From: Symbiodinium sp. CCMP2592
Taxonomy: Eukaryota > Sar > Dinophyceae > Suessiales > Symbiodiniaceae
NCBI GenBank assembly: GCA_905221615.1
Contig: CAJNDT010005919.1
Coordinates: 248,001 to 312,000, forward strand
Direction of reading: 5' to 3'
Length of the DNA stretch: 64,000 bases
Shown here piece after piece: positions 21,301-58,185 of the stretch. The position numbers were made by a program, and so were the translations under genes. The notes below the pieces were generated by a model. It was not told the DNA's origin. It saw only the letters and a program-made list of their open reading frames with translations, and made no database searches. The first letter of the stretch is position 1, and each line of letters begins with the position of its first letter.

Positions 21301-21681
21301 GAGAAGCCGATGCCGTTTAAGGGAGGGATCGTTGCTCAGCCAGGTCCTGCGTGGAAACGACTTATACTTCCCTTGGAGTGGCCACCCGCGTCGCACGCAA
21401 ACCTGAAAACATCCCAGTGGACGCCCTTCCCCAATGCAGGGCACTTCCACAGGTGTGGCGGTACCGACGAGCAGCCAACAGCGGTTTTGCTCGAGCACGT
21501 ATCATGCTGCCGTTTCCAGGCCCAGCCAGCGCGTTTGATTCGAGTGCGGTGGTCCTGTCAAGCCCGGCCGACACCCAAGAGTAATCGATGCCAGAGTCTC
21601 AATCGCGTCGAGAGATGTCGCCGGACGAGACATGACTTCTGCGAGAACGGCACGGAAGAAACCCACCCTTAAGGTTATTAA
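21301..21681 (+). repeat. Family B fragment (middle part)
   Basis: Starting from GCCGATGCCGTTTAAGGGAG, this covers the middle of family B as far as GGCACGGAAGAAACCCACCC. One frame reads LGVATRVARKPENIPVDALP and RIMLPFPGPASAFDSSAVVL. The equivalent words occur at 24.7 and 35.0 kb. It stops at the TTAA where the terminal-inverted-repeat element is inserted. Confidence 0.65.
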
Positions 21682-22443
21682 GGTTGGGGGTGTTCTCTAC
21701 CATCATGTGTGGGCCTCTACTATGACAGAAACCCTGGCGACTCCGTGCCGGCAACGGGGCTTACAACAGAAACTGTAACGGAACGTAGTGGAGCTGTAAC
21801 GGATTTGTCGCTCAGCTGTAACGGACCTGTAAAGGAGCTGTAACGGAGCTGTGACGGAAGCTGTAACGGAGCTGCAGAAGCTGCAGCGGAGCTGTAACGG
21901 ACCTGCTACGGAGCTGTAACGGAGCTGTAACGGAGCTGCAACGGGAGCTGTAACGGAGCTGTAACGGGGCTGTAGCAGAAGCGGTAGCGGGTCTGTAACG
22001 GACCTGCAACGGAGCTGTGAAGGACCTGCAACGGAGCTGTAGCGGAAGCTGTAACGGACCTGCAACGTAGCTGTAACGGACCTGCAACGGAGCTGTAACG
22101 GAAGCTGTAACGGAGCTGTAATGGAGCTGTAGCAGAAGCTGTAACGGAGCTGTAACGGAGCTGTAACGGGGCTGTAGCAGAAGCTGCAGCGGGGCTGTAA
22201 CGGACCTGCTACGGAGCTGTAACGGACCTGCGACGGAGCTGTAACGGAGCTGTAACGGAAGCTGTAACGGAGCTGCAACGGAGCTGTAGCAGAAGCTGTA
22301 GCGGAGCTGTAACGGACCTGCAACGGAGCTGTAACGGACCTGCAACAGAGCTGTAGCGGAAGCTGTAACGGAGCTGGTAACTGAGGGCCCAGGGCGGGTA
22401 GCGCAAATCCCATAGTAAATGATGGTAGAGAACACCCCCAACC
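21682..22443. mobile_element. Nonautonomous TIR element in a TTAA site
   Basis: The two ends (21682-21705 and 22420-22443) are perfect 24-bp inverted repeats starting GGTTGGGGGTGTTC. They are flanked on both sides by TTAA (21678-21681, 22444-22447). Duplication copy 2 lacks the element and has only a short TTAAGGCTTAAGGGC at 47228-47242. A TTAA target duplication is characteristic of piggyBac-type and some other cut-and-paste transposons. There is no transposase gene, so mobilisation would need an enzyme from elsewhere. Almost all of the interior is minisatellite. Confidence 0.8.
21768..22377. repeat. 11/12-bp minisatellite inside the TIR element
   Basis: Some 55 units of GAGCTGTAACG type follow each other, mixed with GACCTGCAACG and the 12-bp GAAGCTGTAACG variants. 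Because unit lengths vary between 11 and 12 bp, long minus-strand open frames full of LQLRYSSVTAP appear by chance. They are not genes. Confidence 0.85.
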
Positions 22444-24470: not shown

Positions 24471-26195
24471 AGATGTCGACCTCGTCGTCGTTGAGGAGAT
24501 GGTGGTCGTGGCTGTTGAACTTGAATGCTACCGCCGCATGAGGGACTGTGCCCGAGATCATTCCACCAGTACATGTGTGGGTGCTGCAGCAGGAAGGTTC
24601 AAGTACCCGTTGAAGCACACGAGTCAATGCCCTCCGTCACGGAGAGGCCGATGCCGTCGCAGGGCAGGATCGTCGCTCAGCCAGGTCCTGCGTAAAACGC
24701 TTGTGTTTCGACTGGAGTGGCCGCCCGCGTCACGTGCAATGCTGAGGACATCTCGGTGGACGCCGTCACTTCCTTTGAGGTATGGCTGTACCGACGAGCA
24801 ACCAACAGCTGCTTTGCTCGAGCATGTGTCGTGCTGCCGTTACCAGACCAAGTTCCTTAAAGGCCAGCACATTTGGAGTGTGATGGTCCTGTCAACCCCG
24901 TCAGCTCAAGTCACAAGGCCGAAGGACCACTTTGGCTCGTGGGCGCGAGGCACTGCTCATCCCAGAAGCTGCAGCTCGCCAAGGCCCAAGAGCAATCGAT
25001 GCCAGAGTCTCAAGCCCGTCGAGAGATGTCGCCGGACGAGGAATCAGATGTCGTGCGAGGTCCTTCGCAAGGCAAGAACGGCGAGGAAGAAAGCCACCCT
25101 TCAGGGCTACTGTTGTCTGGTTGTCCTTCACCAATGCCGGTTGCATTCGCTGCGCGGTTCGCACCATGGACTATTTGTGTTTGAACTAGTTATTTGCCCA
25201 GCCTGGGAAGGTCAAACAAAGGCCCAGCACAGGTTGGCGGTTGGATCGAGCAGAACGGTGTCCAATGCTGCGCAGCGCCGGTTCACGCCGAGTGATACCC
25301 TGTATCGTCTTTACCTGGTACAGTGCTATTCTTTCCTTTCAGGATTTCATCCGCAATGCTACGATAGCCGAAATCTGAAAACGGTGTACGCAGTCTTAAA
25401 CTGTTGGCCACGGACAGCTGGAGCTACTGGGCGTGATGCATCAATTGTTGCTGATGACCTGAATACGATCCTTCGTGATGATCTCGAGTGTGCAGTTGCT
25501 ACTGTGGAGGAGACTCGTCGCCGTGCCGAAATGTCGCAGCAGGCCCAGCCAAAGTATCCAACGCACCTTCTTCCGGGAAAAGGTGAAGGGAGTGGCAAAG
25601 CCAAGAGCCAATTCAAGGCCGCTGGTCTCCCCGACCGTGAACGTCATCGTCGCTGCCAGCGCTAATGGGATGCTGATGATGACGGTTGTGGTGGAACTGG
25701 TCCGGATCCGGACGGTCCTTTTGGAGTGGCTGGGGGAGCAACTGTGGGATGGAGCTGGCGCTGATCCCAGATCCTTCGTGTGCCGAAATTTTCCATGTGC
25801 TTGCGCAGGTAAGTTCGCCCGGCCAACGACTTACTGGCGGCAAAAGCTGTTTTTTTGCGTGCGATGCGCACCCCCTCACGAGCGTGCTTTTCCAGCCGCA
25901 TAAATAGTTAGCTTTTGAACCGCTGCGTAACTTTCTTGCAACGTCGATGGTGTCGGAGGCAGCTCCATGCCGATCACTGAGGCTCCGCGCCGAGTAATGA
26001 TCTTCCACGTGCAGGCTGGTTATGCTTGGTTTTCCACTATGCGGGCAGGGTGTAGTTTGGCGTCCTGCCGTGTGTAGGACTTTATGTGATCGTGTGCAGT
26101 CATCATGTTGTTTGTTCATGCGACCGATGCTCGTGCCCACTGAGCAAAAAGGAGTAGCGTATCCTGAAGCTCATGGCTTAACGGTTCTCGGTTTA
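24471..26195 (+). pseudogene. Family B relic, longest copy, with the empty retrotransposon site
   Basis: This spans family B nearly end to end. Plus-strand frames include MVVVAVELE at 24499 and, from about 25435 to 25665, ASIVADDLNTILRDDLECAV followed by EETRRRAEMSQQAQPKYP and GKGEGSGKAKSQ. The long frame 24499-25665 joins unrelated phases across frameshifts and is not taken as a gene. An intron-like stretch of 41 nt (25302-25342) runs from GTATCG to CTTTCAG. The sequence at 25294-25306 is the palindrome GATAC-CCT-GTATC. In copy 2 that site holds the 8.1-kb retrotransposon. The function of the original protein is unknown. Confidence 0.5.
25294..25306. other. Empty target site of the DIRS-order retrotransposon
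   Basis: The 13-bp palindrome GATAC-CCT-GTATC is intact here. In copy 2 the left part lies at 50082-50090 and the right part at 58185-58189, with the element between. The pair defines the insertion point exactly. No bases are duplicated beyond a TG shared by target and element ends. Confidence 0.9.
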
Positions 26196-49260: not shown

Positions 49261-50090
49261 TCGACCTCGTCGTCGATGAGGAGATGGTGGTCGTGGCTGT
49301 TGAACTTGAATGCTACCGCCGCATGAGGGACTGTGCCCGAGGTCATTCCACCAGTACATGTGTGGGTGCTGCAGCAGGAAGGTTCAAGTACCCGTTGAAG
49401 CACACGAGTCAATGCCCTCCGTCACGGAGAGGCCGATGCCGTCGCAGGGCAGGATCGTCGCTCAGCCAGGTCCTGCGTAAAACGCTTGTGTTTCGACTGG
49501 AGTGGCCGCCCGCGTCACGTGCAATGCTGAGGACATCTCGGTGGACGCCGTCACTTCCTTTGAGGTATGGCTGTACCGACGAGCAACCAACAGCTGCTTT
49601 GCTCGAGCATGTGTCGTGCTGCCGTTACCAGACCAAGTTCCTTAAAGGCCAGCACAACATTTGGAGTGTGATGGTCCTGTCAACCCCGTCAGCTCAAGTC
49701 ACAAGGCCGAAGGACCACTTTGGCTCGTGGGCGCGAGGCACTGCTCATCCCAGAAGCTGCAGCTCGCCAAGGCCCAAGAGCAATCGATGCCAGAGTCTCA
49801 AGCCCGTCGAGAGATGTCGCCGGACGAGGAATCAGATGTCGTGCGAGGTCCTTCGCAAGGCAAGAACGGCGAGGAAGAAAGCCACCCTTCAGGGCTACTG
49901 TTGTCTGGTTGTCCTTCACCAATGCCGGTTGCATTCGCTGCGCGGTTCGCACCATGGACTATTTGTGTTTGAACTAGTTATTTGCCCAGCCTGGGAAGGT
50001 CAAACAAAGGCCCAGCACAGGTTGGCGGTTGGATCGAGCAGAACGGTGTCCAATGCTGCGCAGCGCCGGTTCACGCCGAGTGATACCCTG
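49261..50090 (+). pseudogene. Family B relic, left part, split by the retrotransposon
   Basis: Equivalent to 24471-25302. The apparent open frame 49284-50420 runs from family B across the insertion edge into the retrotransposon leader, so it is a chance fusion. The part up to GATACCCTG at 50090 is host-side sequence. Confidence 0.55.
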
Positions 50091-50141
50091 ATAAGTAAGC
50101 TGCCTGCGAAGCCTTCAGTTTCCGTCGTTGCTCAAGTTCAC
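50091..50141 (+). repeat. Split direct repeat A1 (left end)
   Basis: This runs from ATAAGTAAGCTGCC to CTCAAGTTCAC. It is identical over 51 bp to A2. It is followed at once by the palindrome GGGGGCCCCC (50142-50151). Confidence 0.9.
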
Positions 50142-50406
50142 GGGGGCCCCCTGGTGATGGATCTTGGTAGTCTTTTGAGGGTCATTCACTCAGGGGTCTC
50201 TTCAAATTTCTGGGGCCTCGGGTGTCCCTTCTATTGTGGGCCCTCCTCTTTCGCTTCCTTGGCCTTGGCCTTCATCCTCGGCTTCTTGTGCGCTGCTGGT
50301 CTTGCGGCTTGGGCCCTTCTTTACGTTTGGGTGCACAGCAGGCCGGCTACTGGGCCGGTCCCTGCTACCTCTTCTGCCTCTGCCCTTCGCCTTCGTCAGT
50401 ACTTGG
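50142..50406 (+). other. 5' leader of the retrotransposon
   Basis: About 265 bp between A1 and the first in-frame ATG of ORF1. It is GC-rich and begins with a 10-bp palindrome of G5C5. The ORF1 frame is open through most of it without an ATG, so a non-ATG start upstream cannot be excluded. It would be the place for a promoter or leader, but no motif was recognised. Confidence 0.5.
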
Positions 50407-51108
50407 ATGCAAGGCGGTGATCAGGGGGTTGTTGCCTTGACAGCCTCCTTTGGTCAGCTCGAGGTTACTGTGCGAGGCCCTTTGCCTGAGGCCACTCGGT
50501 TGCTTCAGCACCTTCAGTTGTTTGATCGTGTGGGCTCGGCTTGCCCTCCTTCTCCTGCACCTTCTGCTCAGAGCTCCGTGGCTCAGCCTGCTACTCCTTT
50601 GCCATTGCCTACCGAGGCAGCTGCTAGCCCTTCCTCTCTTGACTTCCAGGCCCCGGCTTCGTCATATCATCCAGCCCCTGCTGCTCAGGTTCCCTTGCAG
50701 GGCCGTGTGCCCCCTCTGCCGGTGCAGAGCAAGCGTGCTGCTGAGCAAGCTTTTCCTGCCTGCCCGTCGACTTGGTTGGATCGTGCCAGCTCGCTGGGAG
50801 CTGCAAACTTGAGCCCTCGCTCTCGTGTGACACGAGCTTGGCGTGCGGGTCAGTGGGCCCGTCTTGTGCTCGCCGGCCAATACGCCGCGCCTCTGCCCTC
50901 CGAGAACCTCACTCTGGCCTCTCGCTTTTACGCTGTTGTGGGGGGTGGCTCTACCAGGCCCGCCTTGTACCGAGGCTACCGTGAGTTCAGTGCGGCCATT
51001 GGGCCCCTTGCCTCTTCGCCTTCGGTGTCTCACGGGTTCCCTTCGGAGCTGGAGGCCCGGGTGTACGTTGACGCAGCTGGCCTGTCGTGGTCGGCCCTTT
51101 CGGAGTGA
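50407..51108 (+). CDS. Retrotransposon ORF1 with viroplasmin-like hybrid-binding domain
   Basis: A protein of 233 residues counted from the ATG at 50407, the first ATG in the frame. The N-terminal part (about 8-36) reads VALTASFGQLEVTVRGPLPE, a small beta-rich module. Residues 45-110 are Pro/Ala/Ser-rich and probably disordered. Around residue 150 lies SRVTRAWRAGQWARLVLAGQ. From residue 173 (nt 50923), RFYAVVGGG with a later YRGYREFSAAIG and HGFPSELEARVYVDAAG fits the fold of the caulimovirus viroplasmin / RNase H1 N-terminal domain (Cauli_VI), which binds RNA/DNA hybrids. A role in nucleic-acid handling during reverse transcription is inferred. The stop TGA (51106-51108) shares its A with the ATG of the next ORF, giving TGATG, a known reinitiation arrangement. 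Confidence 0.7.
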   Translation: MQGGDQGVVALTASFGQLEVTVRGPLPEATRLLQHLQLFDRVGSACPPSPAPSAQSSVAQPATPLPLPTEAAASPSSLDFQAPASSYHPAPAAQVPLQGRVPPLPVQSKRAAEQAFPACPSTWLDRASSLGAANLSPRSRVTRAWRAGQWARLVLAGQYAAPLPSENLTLASRFYAVVGGGSTRPALYRGYREFSAAIGPLASSPSVSHGFPSELEARVYVDAAGLSWSALSE

Positions 51109-52779
51109 TGGAAGCCATTTTGGCTTTCGGGGAGCAGGCCGCGCTTTGGATCTACGAGCACCCGTCAGGTGTGGGCGCATTGGAGGCCCTTTCCGTGGTA
51201 CTTGCAAAGCGGCCGAATGGGCTGTTGGTGGCGGTTCCGCTGGGTGTTTTCTCGGAGGAGGAGCTGGCTGCTGCCCACGCAGCAGAGATGGACGATTTAG
51301 TCGGGTCCTCGCTTGTGACCGAGGCCCCTGCTTTGGCCTTTACCGGAGACGATTTTGTCTCGGTGCCCGACCAAGGCGTGTCGGCTGTGATCGTGGATTT
51401 GTCAATAGAGGCTGTGCCGAGGTTTACTCAGATGCTGCCAGGTGCCTCTTTGGACCTTGTTGTTCCGTTCGACAGTGCTCGCCCGGAGCTACTGCCGGAT
51501 CCTGCCATCCTTCTCCAGCTGGCCTTGGATTGGGCTGCCACTGCAGGAGCTCCCGAGAGGCTCCAATATTACTCTGCCGAAGAGGGTCCAGCCGAGCCAG
51601 CACAGAAGCAAAAGCGCCCTGTGCTGCGCCTGTCAAAGGGAGATGCTCAGCCGCCGGCCGGCTCGGTTTTGCCTTCAGGAGGTGTGCAGCCAAAGCAGCC
51701 AGCCCCAAAGAGGATCACCACAGCGACCTTGGCCTCCCAACTCGACACCTTGACGTCCACTTTGCCCGGATTGATGAAGTCGATGGAGGACCTTGCCTCG
51801 AAACAGGCAGCTATGGAAAAGCAGATGGCCGGGGGGCCCGCGGCCCCGCTAAGCCAGCCTTTGGGTTTAGGAAGCCGCCCCAAGACTGGGGGTCCTCCGG
51901 CTCTAGGGTTGCTAGGCCCTCCCCCGCGCACTGCCCGCCTGAGTCCCCAGCCCCAGCTTCCTGTGACCGGACAGCCAGGACTAGCAGAGGCCACGGCCGA
52001 GGAGGCAAGAGACGAGCTTGGTGCCCAGCCCGCGGTGGACCCACTGTCCCAAGCGGTCTTGGAACAATCAAGGGCCCTCACGGCTCTTGTGGCCCAGATT
52101 TCCGGGGCCTCGGGAGATCTGTTTTCGGAGGGGGCTGCTTCCGGATCTCACTTGAGTGCTCGAGGAGCAAGCCAGCGGGCAAGGATGCAGGAAGAACTGG
52201 CCAGCGACCGCGGCACATTCTTCACAGCAGTCCTGCAAAACATGTCCCGCCGCATGGCCCCAGCTGTGAGCCCAAGCACGGATCCTGCCGAAATGCTCCA
52301 GCAAGGAGTGTGCCTGTCTCGGTATTGGGAGCGCTTCGGGGGTTTTGCCGGGCAGCGGGACCTGGGAGCCATTGCCCATGCCTTGGCTCACGCGATGGAC
52401 TCACTGGCGGGTGAATCAGGCCTCAGATCACTTGGCACTCCTCGCCGTGTGCATCGAGCAGATGAGCATGGACTCGGGCCGCGCCGAGCTTGGGTACCAG
52501 CTCACTTGGCTGGAGGACCCGCCGGCCGCAATGTTTGCTGCCAGGCCGGGAAGGAGCACCATGCATACAAGGGCTTTTGCTCCTCTGGCTGCGCAACGGT
52601 GGGTGGCAATTGTCCTCAGCTATGTCAAAGAGCTAGATGTGATAGCGGCAAAGCGGGCAGACATGAAGAAGGGCGGCTCTCCTTCGGGAAATGGGTCAGG
52701 GACTCAGGACGGCGAGGGGGACGATGCGGCCACACCTTCCCGCCCACGGCGGCCACCTCGAAAAAAGCAGGGCCAGTGA
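51108..52779 (+). pseudogene. gag: Gag-like ORF with an apparent +1 frameshift lesion
   Basis: The first part (51108 to about 52410) is in the frame starting at ATG 51108. It contains LALDWAATAGAPERLQYYSA, a helix with ASQLDTLTSTLPGLMKSMED that may form a coiled coil, a Pro-rich linker, and near its end RYWERFGGFAGQRDLGAIAH. The natural continuation is in another frame: NQASDHLALLAVCIEQMSMD, GYQLTWLEDPPAAMFAARPG, then FAPLAAQRWVAIVLSYVKEL and a basic end PRKKQGQ before TGA (52777-52779). Words like LLEDPP and FAPL..QRW follow the GG.G.QRDLG word in related dinoflagellate proteins as I recall them. One extra G in the GGG at 52409-52411 would explain the shift. A programmed +1 shift or an assembly error are alternatives. 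The product would be the structural protein of the particle. Confidence 0.65.
52761..52767 (+). promoter_or_regulatory. Candidate -1 ribosomal frameshift site, A AAA AAG
   Basis: In the gag C-terminal frame the codons are CGA AAA AAG CAG, so the heptamer A AAA AAG is in the correct X XXY YYZ phase. It lies 9 nt upstream of the gag stop TGA at 52777. A one-base backward slip there continues directly in the frame that carries pol. The sequence GGGCC at 52770 can pair with GGCCC around 52796, and GGGGCCCC at about 52793 is itself a palindrome. These might be stimulating structures, though the spacing was not tested. Confidence 0.65.
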
Positions 52780-55700
52780 ACTTCAGCGTCGGGGCCCCTC
52801 TCGTGTTGCCCCCTGCTGCTGCAGACGCCTCGGCTTCTGCTGTGCCTCCGCTCTTCAGTGCTTCTCGGGGCCAGCCTCCTACTCGTAAGCAGCCAGGGGT
52901 TGGGAACTGTACTGTGCTGGGGAAGGGGAGCCTTTTCTCTCCGCCGTGTGGCTCCGCGCCTGCTTCTGTCTGTGATGGGCCGTCAGCTGTTTCCTGCACT
53001 CCCGCCCGGGCCTGTGCTGCTGATGGTGCCTCTAGCCTGCAGCCCAACGTGGGTGCTGCTAATCCTGCCTTTTGCTCGTGCCCTGGCGCCTCCTTTGAAG
53101 ATTTAAGTGGCTTGCCTCGGCCATCGCCAAATGCCGGTCCTCGTGACCAATTCGATGCAACTTTGTCTTTTCGTGAGTGGTCGGCCGCTTTGCCGCGCTG
53201 GGTCTTGGACTCCAGGACTCCCTTTGCTGCTCTGCTTGCCCGTACCCTTCTTTCGCCTGCCAGCCGGTGGGGACCTGCCCCACCTTCCGCAACTTTTCCT
53301 TTGCCTCTTCCCCACCTGGGGCTCTTTGAGGCAAGTGGCCCACGGCTTTCAAAGGCTCTTTGGCGCCGCCTGCGTCTGAGACGGGTCCTGCATGTCTTGG
53401 TTTTGGCCTTGAACTATGCCTACGAGGGCCTCCGTTTCCTGCCTTATGAGCTGCTGTGGAGGGAGCCGAACACCCACCAGAGGAGAGTCTATGATCGACT
53501 CATGCGGCACCTTGTTGCGTGTGACTCTCGCACCGAGCGTTTCCCTCTTCCGCCGGGCCGGTCTGGTCCCGAGAGTCTTGCACGCCTTTTGCATTTGGAG
53601 CACGTATCTCAGGTACTGCTCTCCGACGGCCACGGCTACTCTGGCCCTTCGGGCCCTTCTGCCTGCCCTGCCGACCTTCTTTCTGGGCCAATCGGTGACT
53701 CTTCTTTCGGCGGGAGGCCTGATGATCGGCCTGAGCTTCGTCCTTATCGGCCCCTTGATACCTCACGGCTAAAGCTGACTGGCAGGGGCCTTTGGGATGC
53801 CGAGCCGTGGCTCCAAGGTTCTTTGTGGCTCCCTTTCGTCGAGCCAGCCTGTATGCTTCACGGCCGGTCCGTCACGAGCACTGACTGCCCGAACTTTGAA
53901 GCCGAGGACCGCGCCGAGAATCGGGACCTCGCCTTGCTCTGGTCTTCTCAAGGCCTCTTAGCTCTTGCGCCGGGGGACCCCAATCCGGGCTACCAGTCCC
54001 GGGTCTTTAACGCTTACAAAGACCCGACACGGGACAGACAAATTGGGGACCGCCGTGTCCCGAATGCTGGGGAAAGGCATATGAAAGGACCATCTTCACA
54101 TCTCCCCCCAGGCTTCTTGCTGTCTGCCCTGGAGGTCCCCAAATTCCGGTCCCAGATCACAGGATACTGCAGTGATAGGAAGGATTTTTACCATCAATTT
54201 AAGATTACGCCAGAACGAGCCCTCACCAACTCCCTGGCTTTTTCTTATGGTGCTGAAGAGCTTGGGCCTGACACCTTTGCAAGGTCCCCTGTGCTTTGGG
54301 AGGAGCCGCCTGCCGCTGATCTCGCCTCCCGTTGGACGCCCTGCTTCAACTCACTGTTTCAAGGCGACCATATGGGCGTGGAGTTTGCTTTGGCTGCACA
54401 CGCGGCTTTGCTCCGGTATGGTGGGGCCCTGCCCTCGCACTCCTTGCTGCAGAACCACGCCGCCTTTCCCCTAGGGAATACGGTTCAAGCCTTAGTCATT
54501 GATGACCTTGTGGGTGTAAGCATCATCCCTTCCTCTGCCGACCCAAAGGGACCCTCTCCAGCCAGGGAGCTCCATAAAGCGGCCGGGGAGGTCTACGATA
54601 GGTTCTCCGTGTTGGGCTCCCCTGAGAAGGACGTCGAGGGTGAGACCCTCTTCACTGCCATTGGGGCCGAGCTTGACTCTAGAAGGGCGTGTGTGCGAAG
54701 CGGTCTTGTTACCGCCGCGGCCCCACTTGGCCGCCGACTTAGCCTGGCTGCGATCAGCTTGCGAGCGGCCCGCCTTCCGATCACCTCTTCTGGCCTGATC
54801 TCGCGCCTGACTGGGGCTTGGACTTCGGCTTTCCTTTTCCGGCGGTGCTGCATGGTTGTGCTCTCCGAGGCTTTCGGTGTCGCGAACCTTGCTGCCGAGG
54901 ACCCGAAGAGCAGCAAAAGGGCCATACCACTATCTAGGCGGCTTTCGCAAGAACTGGTCCTTGCGTCTGTGCTCTCGCCGCTTGCCTGTGCCGACCTCAC
55001 TGCTGGCCTCGCAGACAGGGTCTTTGCGACTGATGCCTCGTTGGCCCGAGGGGCAGCTTGCTCCTGCATTTTGCCTCCCGCTGTGAGCCGCTCTCTTTGG
55101 CAAAACGGTGACCGTAGGGGCGCTTACTCTAGGTTAGAGGAGGGTCCCCGTACTTTGCTAAAGGCTGCCGGCCTGGCACCTTACCAGGAGGACATTCTTG
55201 AGGACACTGTGCAGGCCTCCTCCTCCCAGGCCGTCCCTTTTGTGCTGGATGTGCTTGAGATTGGGTGCTGCGGGGGCTTCCTCGGAGGGCCGGGCCTCCG
55301 TGACGGCCTCGACCTTGGTCCTCTCATTTCGCCGTCTGCCTCGAGGCACTATGATGTCACCTCGGCCTCCTTTGTCGGCTGGCTCAGCGATGCTCTTCAG
55401 GAAGGTTTGGTGAGGAGCCTCCTGATCGCACCTCCTTGCCCCCTTTGCGGACCTCACTCTGGCTGTGCCTATGCAAAGCGCTGCCTGGCGATCTTTGCTC
55501 TCGCCCGGGCCTCTGACGTTCCGGCCTTGCTGTTGCTTCCGGGGCCTGCCTATGCCGCTCTGTCCCCTGAGATCGACCGGCTTTGCTCTGTCGGTGCCGC
55601 TCTGAGGTGGCTCTCCCTTGAGCGTCTTGGTGCACTCAGCCCTGGGAGCTGTGCATGCCTAAGCACAAAGCTTGACGTAGGAGCCCTCGACGCCTTTGCT

Positions 55701-57728
55701 GGCTCTCCTGACCTCTGCGCCCCCTTTGCCTTGAGGAGCACTGAGCGTGACGTCTTTGGGAAGGAGCTCCTGCGGTGCTTTTCGCGGGCTCTTCTGGGTA
55801 CCACAGCTGCCCTTGAGAAAGCTGGCATTGAGTCTATAGCTGTCAATGATGTGCTATCTGGGGCCCAATGGAGCGTTGATGTGGTCTTCCCCTGGCGCGG
55901 CAGCTCGCACATCAATGTTCTGGAGCTCGCCACGATTGTCGCTCTTCACCGCCGCCTTGCTGTCTCTCACGCCGACCGGCGCGTCGTTATCTTTGTTGAC
56001 AGCCAGGTCGCAAAAAGTGCCGCGGCAAAGGGGCGTTCCTCTTCAAAGGCCTTGGGTTTTGCCCTCCTGAGATCCTCTGCCACGCAACTCGCCTTTGGGC
56101 TCTTTGTCTCCTACGGCTTTGCGCCTACTAGGCTAAATGTGGCCGATGATCCGACTCGCTTTGCTGAGCTCCGCACCCCTGCCGACCATTGCCTTTTTGA
56201 GCTGTTGCCAGAAACCGTCTGGCATGCTGTGTCTGCCCTTCGCATGCGGCGTCCTCTCGCCTCCTGGGCCCGGCTCTTCCTTATGGCTTCGGTGCGGCTT
56301 TTGCCTGACAGTGGTCGTCTCATGTCCCTCCTCGCGGGCCCCTTCTCTCCTTGGTTCCAACCGGGGCCGGGCCACTGCCGACTGGACTTTGATTCCACCT
56401 TGGGCTTTCCTGGTGAGGGACCTTCTGGCTTTACGGCCCTTCCTCTTGGTCCTCCCTTTCGGGGCTCTGGCCTCCCTTCTTCTTTCCGGCCTTCGGGCCC
56501 TCGTGCTGGCTCCCACTGCTTTGACTTCGTGGTTGAGCCCCTTTCTCCCTTTGCAAAGGTTTCTGCCAATCACTCCTGTCCTCTGGACTTTGATGCCACC
56601 TTGGGCTTTCCTGGTGAGGGTTGGGTTTTCTTCAGGTTCTGGGTTTCTGTAGCTACTGCCATGGCCGTTGTCGCTCCGCGGACGCCTGCCGAACAAGAGA
56701 GAGCTCTGCGGCGCTCCCCTGTGCTACTTGTGGCCGACCGCGTGATCCGACCGGTGACCCGAAACAACCGGGAGCGACTAGCTGCAGGTTTCGATGAATG
56801 GCTTCTGGAAGCACACGGCGTGTCCTTACGTGGTATTCTGGATGCCCCTGGCGATGTGTCTGAAAAGGTCGCAGGCTTATTGGTGGCCTATGGTCAGGCT
56901 CTTTTCCGTGGAGGCCAGCCCTACTACAAGTACTCTGAAACTATAAATGCTGTTGCTGCACTTAAGCCGAGTATCCGGCGCAGCCTTAGCTATGCTTGGG
57001 ACTTGGCGTTTGCTTGGCTGACGGAGGAGCCCCACTGCCACCACAAGGCCATGCCACTTGGGATTTTGTTGGCTATACTGACTGCTGCTCTGGCTTGGGG
57101 CTGGGCTGCTGAAGCAGCCATCTTCGCAATGTCCTGGACGGGTTTTCTTCGGCCGGGGGAGGCACTGAGTGCCCGCCGGTCCGACCTGATTCTCCCCAGA
57201 GATGCTGCCCCTGGCACACAGCATGCCTTACTGGTTATTCGAAACCCCAAGACACGGGGCCGTGCGGCTCGCCACCAGAGCGCCCGGATCGACCCGGTCG
57301 ACATTATCGAGCTTCTTGACGCTGTGTTTGGAGCCCTGCCCAGCCATGCTCTGCTTTGGCCCCAGTCTGGTGCAACCTTGCGCAGGAGACTTGAGCAATT
57401 GCAAGAGCGCCTCGGTTTGCTGGAGCAGGGAAAACCGGTCTTTGACTTGAGCTCTTTTCGACCGGGCGGCGCAACGTGGGCTTTAAGCTTAACAGAAAAC
57501 TCAGAACTTGTTCGACGTCGTGGACGCTGGCTTTCTCTCCGCGTTATGGATATCTACCTGCAAGAGGTTGTGGCAATCACTTATCTGCCCTCTTTGGACA
57601 CGAACACTCGTGAGTGCATCGATGCCTTGGCGGCCGAATTCCCTGCCACGCTGCAACGGGTGCGATTTTTCATCTCGCGGGCCATACCACGAGCGGTCTG
57701 GTATTCTTTACTCAGGCCTTCTTCTTGA
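52767..57728 (+). CDS. pol: Retrotransposon pol: RT, RNase H with nested methyltransferase-like domain, tyrosine recombinase
   Basis: About 1,653 residues counted from the frameshift site. The same frame is open back to 51108, which I attribute to the gag lesion. Order of parts: a Pro/Ser/Cys-rich linker (1-200). RT with YKDPTRDRQIGDRRVPNAGE, motif A SDRKDFYHQ (Asp at nt 54174, residue 470), LFQGDHMGVEFA (about 530) and VIDDLVG (Asp-Asp from nt 54501, residue 579). RNase H start FATDAS (nt 55032, residue 756). A methyltransferase-like stretch (about 825-1010) with VLDVLEIGCCGGF and APPCPLCG. The rest of RNase H, with HINVLELAT (Glu 1053), FVDSQVA (Asp 1078) and NVADDPTR (Asp 1127). A linker with the twice-repeated LDFDxTLGFPGEG. 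Tyrosine recombinase with FLRPGEAL (Arg 1462), NPKTRG (Lys 1495), SSFRPGGATWA (Arg 1565), RRGRW (Trp 1588) and MDIYLQE (Tyr 1597). It copies the element RNA and integrates the product. The usual His of the HxxR box is Ser here. GC content is visibly higher than in the flanking repeats. Confidence 0.88.
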   Translation, partial: AGPVNFSVGAPLVLPPAAADASASAVPPLFSASRGQPPTRKQPGVGNCTVLGKGSLFSPPCGSAPASVCDGPSAVSCTPARACAADGASSLQPNVGAANPAFCSCPGASFEDLSGLPRPSPNAGPRDQFDATLSFREWSAALPRWVLDSRTPFAALLARTLLSPASRWGPAPPSATFPLPLPHLGLFEASGPRLSKALWRRLRLRRVLHVLVLALNYAYEGLRFLPYELLWREPNTHQRRVYDRLMRHLVACDSRTERFPLPPGRSGPESLARLLHLEHVSQVLLSDGHGYSGPSGPSACPADLLSGPIGDSSFGGRPDDRPELRPYRPLDTSRLKLTGRGLWDAEPWLQGSLWLPFVEPACMLHGRSVTSTDCPNFEAEDRAENRDLALLWSSQGLLALAPGDPNPGYQSRVFNAYKDPTRDRQIGDRRVPNAGERHMKGPSSHLPPGFLLSALEVPKFRSQITGYCSDRKDFYHQFKITPERALTNSLAFSYGAEELGPDTFARSPVLWEEPPAADLASRWTPCFNSLFQGDHMGVEFALAAHAALLRYGGALPSHSLLQNHAAFPLGNTVQALVIDDLVGVSIIPSSADPKGPSPARELHKAAGEVYDRFSVLGSPEKDVEGETLFTAIGAELDSRRACVRSGLVTAAAPLGRRLSLAAISLRAARLPITSSGLISRLTGAWTSAFLFRRCCMVVLSEAFGVANLAAEDPKSSKRAIPLSRRLSQELVLASVLSPLACADLTAGLADRVFATDASLARGAACSCILPPAVSRSLWQNGDRRGAYSRLEEGPRTLLKAAGLAPYQEDILEDTVQASSSQAVPFVLDVLEIGCCGGFLGGPGLRDGLDLGPLISPSASRHYDVTSASFVGWLSDALQEGLVRSLLIAPPCPLCGPHSGCAYAKRCLAIFALARASDVPALLLLPGPAYAALSPEIDRLCSVGAALRWLSLERLGALSPGSCACLSTKLDVGALDAFAGSPDLCAPFALRSTERDVFGKELLRCFSRALLGTTAALEKAGIESIAVNDVLSGAQWSVDVVFPWRGSSHINVLELATIVALHRRLAVSHADRRVVIFVDSQVAKSAAAKGRSSSKALGFALLRSSATQLAFGLFVSYGFAPTRLNVADDPTRFAELRTPADHCLFELLPETVWHAVSALRMRRPLASWARLFLMASVRLLPDSGRLMSLLAGPFSPWFQPGPGHCRLDFDSTLGFPGEGPSGFTALPLGPPFRGSGLPSSFRPSGPRAGSHCFDFVVEPLSPFAKVSANHSCPLDFDATLGFPGEGWVFFRFWVSVATAMAVVAPRTPAEQERALRRSPVLLVADRVIRPVTRNNRERLAAGFDEWLLEAHGVSLRGILDAPGDVSEKVAGLLVAYGQALFRGGQPYYKYSETINAVAALKPSIRRSLSYAWDLAFAWLTEEPHCHHKAMPLGILLAILTAALAWGWAAEAAIFAMSWTGFLRPGEALSARRSDLILPRDAAPGTQHALLVIRNPKTRGRAARHQSARIDPVDIIELLDAVFGALPSHALLWPQSGATLRRRLEQLQERLGLLEQGKPVFDLSSFRPGGATWALSLTENSELVRRRGRWLSLRVMDIYLQEVVAITYLPSLDTNTRECIDALAAEFPATLQRVRFFISRAIPRAVWYSLLRPSS
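56382..56621 (+). repeat. Internal 39-bp direct repeat in pol linker
   Basis: The codons for LDFDSTLGFPGEG (56382-56420) return as LDFDATLGFPGEG (56583-56621), exactly 201 bp or 67 codons apart, so the frame is kept. A looser relative, DQFDATLSFREW, lies at about 53149. The spacer is Pro/Phe-rich between RNase H and the recombinase. Confidence 0.75.
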
Positions 57729-57793
57729 GCAACTGCGGGAAAAGTTTGGTTGAGGTTGAAAGCTATACATGTGTGGCTCTTGCTGGGATGATC

Positions 57794-57955
57794 TGGATAC
57801 TTGTACAGAGGTGGCTCATTGCTCCCCCGGCTTCTCAGCCCCGTGGAGCAATGGCCACCTTCGGGAGTGGCTCCGGCTTTGCCTTCGCTGCCACGTATGG
57901 CTTACCGATCTCATGCCTGGGCTGGCGGAAAATATGTGCGAAGCTCGGCTGCTTG
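57794..57955 (+). repeat. Split direct repeat B1 (internal)
   Basis: 162 bp from TGGATACTTGTACAGAGG to CTCGGCTGCTTG. It looks identical to B2 and abuts A2 without a gap. Confidence 0.92.
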
Positions 57956-57969
57956 ATAAGTAAGCTGCC
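57947..57969. other. Recombinase core-like site at the B1/A2 joint
   Basis: GGCTGCTT (57947-57954) and AAGCTGCC (57962-57969) are inverted arms with one mismatch around the 7-bp spacer GATAAGT. Tyrosine recombinases bind two inverted arms around a 6-8 bp crossover region. The same joint would form if the outer ends B2 and A1 were closed into a circle. The TG at 57954-57955 is the dinucleotide shared with the target. Confidence 0.6.
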
Positions 57970-58006
57970 TGCGAAGCCTTCAGTTTCCGTCGTTGCTCAA
58001 GTTCAC
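57956..58006 (+). repeat. Split direct repeat A2 (internal)
   Basis: 51 bp identical to A1. It is followed by a 17-bp pyrimidine-rich spacer (58007-58023) before B2. Confidence 0.92.
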
Positions 58007-58023
58007 CCGCCCTCCCTCCCTTG

Positions 58024-58185
58024 TGGATACTTGTACAGAGGTGGCTCATTGCTCCCCCGGCTTCTCAGCCCCGTGGAGCAATGGCCACCTTCGGGAGTGG
58101 CTCCGGCTTTGCCTTCGCTGCCACGTATGGCTTACCGATCTCATGCCTGGGCTGGCGGAAAATATGTGCGAAGCTCGGCTGCTTG
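58024..58185 (+). repeat. Split direct repeat B2 (right end)
   Basis: 162 bp matching B1 at an offset of 230. Its last bases CTGCTTG are followed directly by host TATCG, which completes the target palindrome. Confidence 0.92.

Follow-up and report, generated by a model that had tools for sequence, protein, structure and literature searches.

PAT-like elements combine reverse transcriptase (RT), RNase H and a tyrosine recombinase (YR) with split direct repeats ordered A1, B1, A2, B2 (PMC4157794, PMC6681497), whereas DIRS1-like elements carry inverted terminal repeats and internal complementary regions, and their YR-mediated integration, which leaves no target duplication, is modelled via a circular junction (PMC3266345). 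PAT carries a methyltransferase, which in the DIRS group is of the Dam-like type and lies after RNase H in Pol (PMC3266345, PMC3783388), and PAT1 has a zinc finger in Gag; Ngaro and VIPER elements are described without a methyltransferase domain (PMC4157794, PMC6681497). In Symbiodinium, DIRS elements whose repeats follow the order A-coding-B-A-B and whose Pol includes a methyltransferase were published in 2018 (de Mendoza et al., PMC5890265); these SymbioDIRS elements occur in two domain orders with varying conservation of the DNA methyltransferase (DNMT), and DNMT-less DIRS elements were reported as well. Here we analysed an element in a 64,000-nucleotide stretch of DNA from Symbiodinium sp. 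CCMP2592 (contig CAJNDT010005919.1, positions 248,001 to 312,000; below, the window), the features of which are listed in Table 1. We consider it highly probable that this is a DIRS-like YR retrotransposon with split direct repeats, which would integrate through the joint of a circular intermediate and the methyltransferase-like insert of which is probably non-enzymatic. Its notable part is this degenerate domain within RNase H rather than the termini.

Table 1. Features of the element and of the uninterrupted site, in window coordinates.
Feature	Position	Strand	Remarks
Whole element	50091..58185	+	8,095 bp; boundary can slide 2 bp leftwards
A1, left terminal repeat	50091..50141	+	51/51 identical to A2
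ORF1 (stop to stop), unassigned function	50179..51108	+	72% identical to ORF1 of relative L012
ORF2, gag by position	51108..52779	+	frame changes near 52407; single frame in L012
Reverse transcriptase with IDDL catalytic motif	53841..55010	+	predicted model and fold matches; Asp pair kept in 117/120 and 116/120 relatives
RNase H, N-terminal part, first catalytic Asp	55011..55130	+	conserved residues, predicted model
Methyltransferase-like insert within RNase H, motifs degenerate	55239..55835	+	alignment, predicted model, PHROG matches of relatives
RNase H, C-terminal part, Glu, Asp, Asp	55866..56210	+	conserved residues, predicted model
Tyrosine recombinase	56622..57725	+	same open frame as RT; fold match
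B1, internal repeat	57794..57955	+	162/162 identical to B2
B1|A2 joint, likely recombination site (from sequence)	57947..57969	+	arms GGCTGCTT and AAGCTGCC around spacer GATAAGT; same arms in two relatives
A2, internal repeat	57956..58006	+	adjoins B1 without gap
A2-B2 spacer, C-rich	58007..58023	+	17 bp; 25 and 21 bp in two relatives
B2, right terminal repeat	58024..58185	+	162/162 identical to B1
Uninterrupted (empty) site TG^TATCG	25301..25302	.	unit 1 of tandem duplication; joint 25302/25303

The element consists of A1 (51 bp), the genes, B1 (162 bp), A2 (51 bp), a short spacer and B2 (162 bp), so that the order A1-genes-B1-A2-B2 with identical repeats, proposed in a preliminary description of the window, was confirmed to the last base of each repeat pair. 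Likewise, the split direct repeats A1 - B1 A2 B2 are the PAT/Ngaro-type termini that this description had named, an arrangement which defines the PAT, Ngaro and VIPER group. Inverted terminal repeats of the DIRS1-like kind were absent, as the terminal repeats are direct and none of the six inverted pairs in the element joins both ends. Each B repeat contains a palindrome, CATTGCTCC...GGAGCAATG, at 57817-57853 and 58047-58083.

The 50 bp to the left of 50091 and the 50 bp to the right of 58185 were found joined at 25302/25303 with no base gained or lost. When the window was compared with itself and with neighbouring sequence, this site proved to lie in the first unit of a two-unit head-to-tail duplication of 25.6 kb (9582-35149 and 35150-68097, the latter ending beyond the window, in L007). 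The units are 98.2-98.7% identical in three long blocks, only unit 2 holds the element, and when its flanks are joined the units do not differ for 433 bp to the left and 62 bp to the right of the insertion point. The presence of the insertion and the uninterrupted site on one contig thus gave base-exact ends. The nucleotide-level boundaries claimed earlier stand save for a slide of 2 bp (the TG at 50089-50090 is also the end of B2): TG is common to the target, to the end of B2 and to the two bases preceding A2, and therefore the crossover could have fallen anywhere within these 2 bp. The lack of a target duplication, which is characteristic of the order DIRS and had been stated beforehand, was borne out by the empty site. 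What had been called an exact empty allele is indeed an exact empty site, but it belongs to a paralogue in a tandem duplication; a reading of the two sites as alleles was rejected in view of the exact head-to-tail units.

We infer that the element entered unit 2 after the 25.6-kb duplication. The A1/A2 and B1/B2 pairs are identical at 213/213 positions, compared with differences of 1.3-1.8% in the duplication blocks, which favours, without proving, insertion after the duplication. If the element instead predated the duplication and was later precisely excised from unit 1, 25302/25303 would be a healed rather than a pre-insertion site; precise excision would produce an identical sequence, and recombinases of the YR class can act in both directions, but the identity of the repeats beside the divergence of the long blocks makes this highly improbable. 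Still less credible is an assembly artefact, with misjoins at 50090 and 58185 to an unrelated contig that bears the element. Assemblies do fail at near-identical tandem units; here, however, both flanks match the empty site to the base, on either side the two units begin to differ again as densely as usual, and the element has complete ends with homologues in two relatives. Many repeats of 70-85% identity occur within each duplication unit, and about 768 bp rich in internal tandem repeats (21675-22442 in unit 1) are missing from unit 2 (joint 47233/47234).

RT, RNase H, the insert and YR share one open frame (51072-57728, stop to stop), as they do in the relative L012. We compared the frame with the best 120 of 615 matching proteins, to which all counts out of 120 refer and which lean towards the kin of the window element; the top-scoring one, from Symbiodinium microadriaticum, shares 68% identity with the query across 67% of its length and makes a dinoflagellate host likely. 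The predicted structure of the RT-RNase H-insert part (alignment of 70 rows; pLDDT 91.4, pTM 0.90) matched the fold of retroviral RTs, and that of the YR (54 rows; pLDDT 83.0, pTM 0.63) the folds of Cre, XerA and lambda integrase. Each of nine catalytic residues in RT, RNase H and YR is retained by 111-119 of the 120 relatives, the misses being gaps except for two. Thus, RT and YR are recognisable by fold and RNase H by its DEDD residues and its place after RT, which is the gene content of YR retrotransposons of the order DIRS, and the predicted RT fold together with the Cre/XerA-type recombinase fold identifies the element as one of them. The gene set of RT, methyltransferase-like region and recombinase that had been read from the window is in agreement with these folds and with the relatives.

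The first RNase H Asp is separated from the Glu by 297 residues, and in the predicted structure the insert follows RNase H strand 2 (model residues 433-440) and precedes strand 3 (708-714), as assigned by inspection. In canonical relatives it carries the motifs FDFVEICGG, PPCTTFSPAAHPAVRSY, LEQPRLSKMAW, SCQFGSPHxKEFR and CPGGHxH, the order usual in cytosine C5 methyltransferases; this canonical form is of the PPCTTFS type. The PC nucleophile motif is the mark of DNA cytosine methyltransferases. Motif IV is present in full in 86/120 relatives, and at its cysteine position 99 relatives have Cys and 11 a different residue, the other 10 being gapped. The window insert lacks the full nucleophile motif: it and its five nearest relatives keep only PPC, the remainder of the motif and about 25 further residues being gone, and in other members of the same clade the cysteine is absent. 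Ngaro elements are defined by a Pol without methyltransferase; here an insert of methyltransferase type is present, identified in the window through its relatives. This PPC-type domain nested in RNase H also differs from the Dam-like domain placed after RNase H in the DIRS group, and no Pfam match to a Dam-type methyltransferase was obtained in the window Pol, where Pfam also misses RT and YR.

The nature of the insert was assessed with 14 canonical pieces. Four of the 14 matched phrog_757 (best E 7.4e-6) and six matched phrog_363 (best E 0.011), families that both carry the name DNA methyltransferase; among whole proteins, P0019 matched phrog_757 at 0.0058 and P0012 had no match. It is improbable that the insert is some other alpha/beta domain peculiar to this family. 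Such a domain would accord with the absence of Pfam, NCBIfam or PDB profile matches for the canonical pieces and with the small number of PHROG matches, the window's own insert having none; against it stand the names of both matched PHROGs, the series of motifs including PPCTTFS in the order usual for cytosine methyltransferases, and the order of strands and helices in the predicted model, which on inspection appeared compatible with a class-I methyltransferase fold (the insert being part of the larger model). Two further searches yielded nothing for the domain: the fold lists of this model showed no methyltransferase in the 50 rows displayed, which is uninformative as RTs fill the lists, and when free-standing relatives of the insert were sought with a profile (176 matches), none of the best 120 bore a methyltransferase name or Pfam domain.

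To place the loss of the motifs we used a tree built from RT, RNase H and YR with the insert removed (121 rows minus 3 partial and 1 poorly filled, holding this family only), in which five rows with a near-canonical motif IV (P0049, P0069, P0096, P0099 and P0101) were set as canonical by hand. The window element fell in a clade of 17 rows, every one of them without the canonical motif (SH-aLRT 100, and 100/100 in a second tree of 50 rows with all 23 motif-loss and 27 of the 94 canonical rows), and the motif state changed at least three times on the tree. In this clade the residues of RT, RNase H and recombinase stay fixed while the insert motifs are lost. Between the window element and L012, a comparison in which dS is saturated, pN/pS was 0.46 (0.38-0.55) for the insert, 0.19 for RT, 0.18 for the C-terminal part of RNase H, 0.14 for YR and 0.44 for the linker; the value for the insert points to purifying selection, though no stronger than in the adjacent linker. 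Because the motifs are lost and the place of the domain is kept, the insert in this clade probably no longer acts as an enzyme and has a structural or regulatory role within RNase H. This raises the question of why a methyltransferase-type domain should be kept inside another enzyme once its motifs are gone.

The 1.098-Gb genome was searched with the right and the left end of the element, both counts being lower bounds. The right end retrieved the element itself and one diverged relative (L004/L005), and the left end the element itself, a second relative (L012) and one weak match; hence the exact subfamily was found at least once and the architecture at least three times. Copies with other ends would have spoken against the boundaries; this check covered the two diverged elements, both of which have the same layout and homologous ends; at a weak fourth locus (L013, contig C744) no terminal repeats were resolved. 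L012 (722-8826, contig C238) is 8,105 bp long with A repeats identical at 54/54 and B repeats at 159/160 positions, and matches the window element in three long blocks of 71-74% identity. It is inserted in coding-like sequence (L012:1-721) 71-76% identical to protein P0241; at protein level, the single homologue available to check its empty site ends at the join and does not show the number of TGs. L004/L005 (contig C5289:107839-114154, 6,316 bp; from L004:3839 to L005:154) has stops and frame changes throughout its genes and lacks about 390 Pol residues, yet its repeats are perfect (A 54/54, B 158/158), which suggests that it was copied in trans by the proteins of another element or that its repeats were homogenised. 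The published model of Ngaro/PAT reverse transcription requires near-identical repeats at insertion (PMC6681497).

The exact ends and the two relatives together expose a probable and directly testable recombinase site. When the B1|A2 joints of the three elements were aligned, GCTGCTT preceded and AAGCTGC followed spacers that differ, namely GATAAGT in the window and GATCTTGT and GAACGTT in the relatives. Conserved arms around a variable spacer of 7-8 bp are typical of tyrosine recombinase sites. Equally good arms appeared at the joint in 0.6% of 20,000 shuffles for the window and in 4.2% for L004/L005. Judging from these sequences, the B1|A2 joint is likely the recombination site of a circular intermediate. 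Following the published PAT/Ngaro model, the cDNA would close to a circle in which B2 meets A1 in a sequence identical to B1|A2. The recombinase would then cut this circle joint on the left side of the 7-8 bp spacer, directly at its edge, and recombine it with a genomic site with no strict homology and no added bases. The targets read CCCT^GTATCG in the window, CACT^GTCAAG in L012 and CACC^AAATCG in L004/L005, and their comparison indicates that homology with the joint is not strict.

Several observations weigh against parts of this interpretation. The target of L004/L005 is without the TG that the other two targets have, and the circle is postulated after the published model. The YR has Ser in place of a His of HxxR that is usual in tyrosine recombinases. 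Pfam found no RT, RNase H or YR in the ORFs of the window, PDB sequence profiles of Pol, YR and the insert gave nothing useful (one irrelevant match, E 2.1), and for RT, RNase H and YR a search of PHROGs brought up nothing beyond a weak match to an integrase (E 0.37). Furthermore, the data do not require a function for the insert, on which constraint is no tighter than on the linker beside it. Symbiodinium DIRS RTs have been reported to align badly with Pfam (de Mendoza et al. 2018, PMC5890265).

The preliminary description had suspected an undescribed dinoflagellate lineage. Since SymbioDIRS elements with A-coding-B-A-B repeats and a Pol methyltransferase are in print, the kind of element had already been described in 2018; the methyltransferase-like domain nested in RNase H is the part for which we found no description, in a literature search covering titles and the beginnings of abstracts, with subscription papers mostly outside it. 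SymbioDIRS-Dnmt3 and the DNMT-less Symbiodinium DIRS elements (PMC5890265) resemble the window element in the A-coding-B-A-B repeats, the Pfam-poor DIRS-like Pol, the YR, the Pol methyltransferase and the host group. It could accordingly be an ordinary SymbioDIRS-Dnmt3 element, the insert being its eroded Dnmt3, and the two domain orders and varying DNMT conservation reported there (PMC5890265) would leave room for it. We regard this as rather unlikely: the Dnmt3 of SymbioDIRS was found by PF00145, but this profile matched neither the window ORF (E up to 1) nor any of five whole relatives or 14 canonical inserts (E up to 10), and the insert lies inside RNase H with its motifs lost. In addition, the YR is described as a separate ORF in SymbioDIRS-Dnmt3, whereas RT and YR share one frame here and in L012. 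We tentatively propose, as something quite possible, a large dinoflagellate YR family with a cytosine-type methyltransferase, unseen by Pfam and NCBIfam, inside RNase H; in the clade of the window element this domain would be dead yet a working part of RNase H, and some "DNMT-less" DIRS elements may belong to the family. Should the canonical form prove active, a second family would have been missed wherever DNA-methylating retrotransposons of dinoflagellates were counted with PF00145.

The element had been called complete, which holds for its structure but not for gag, where the frame changes near 52407 in comparison with the one frame of L012. A programmed frameshift was ruled out, as L012 passes the same place in one frame. 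With gag in two frames, the window copy would be able to move again only if gag were supplied by another source. The end of ORF1 (50944-51090, FYAVVGGG...HGFPSELEARVYV) has no Pfam match and bears what we take to be a resemblance to the RNase H1 hybrid-binding domain. The ORF1 stop overlaps the ORF2 ATG in the sequence TGATG (51106-51110), as it does at L012:1738-1742, and stop-restart translation is possible at this overlap.
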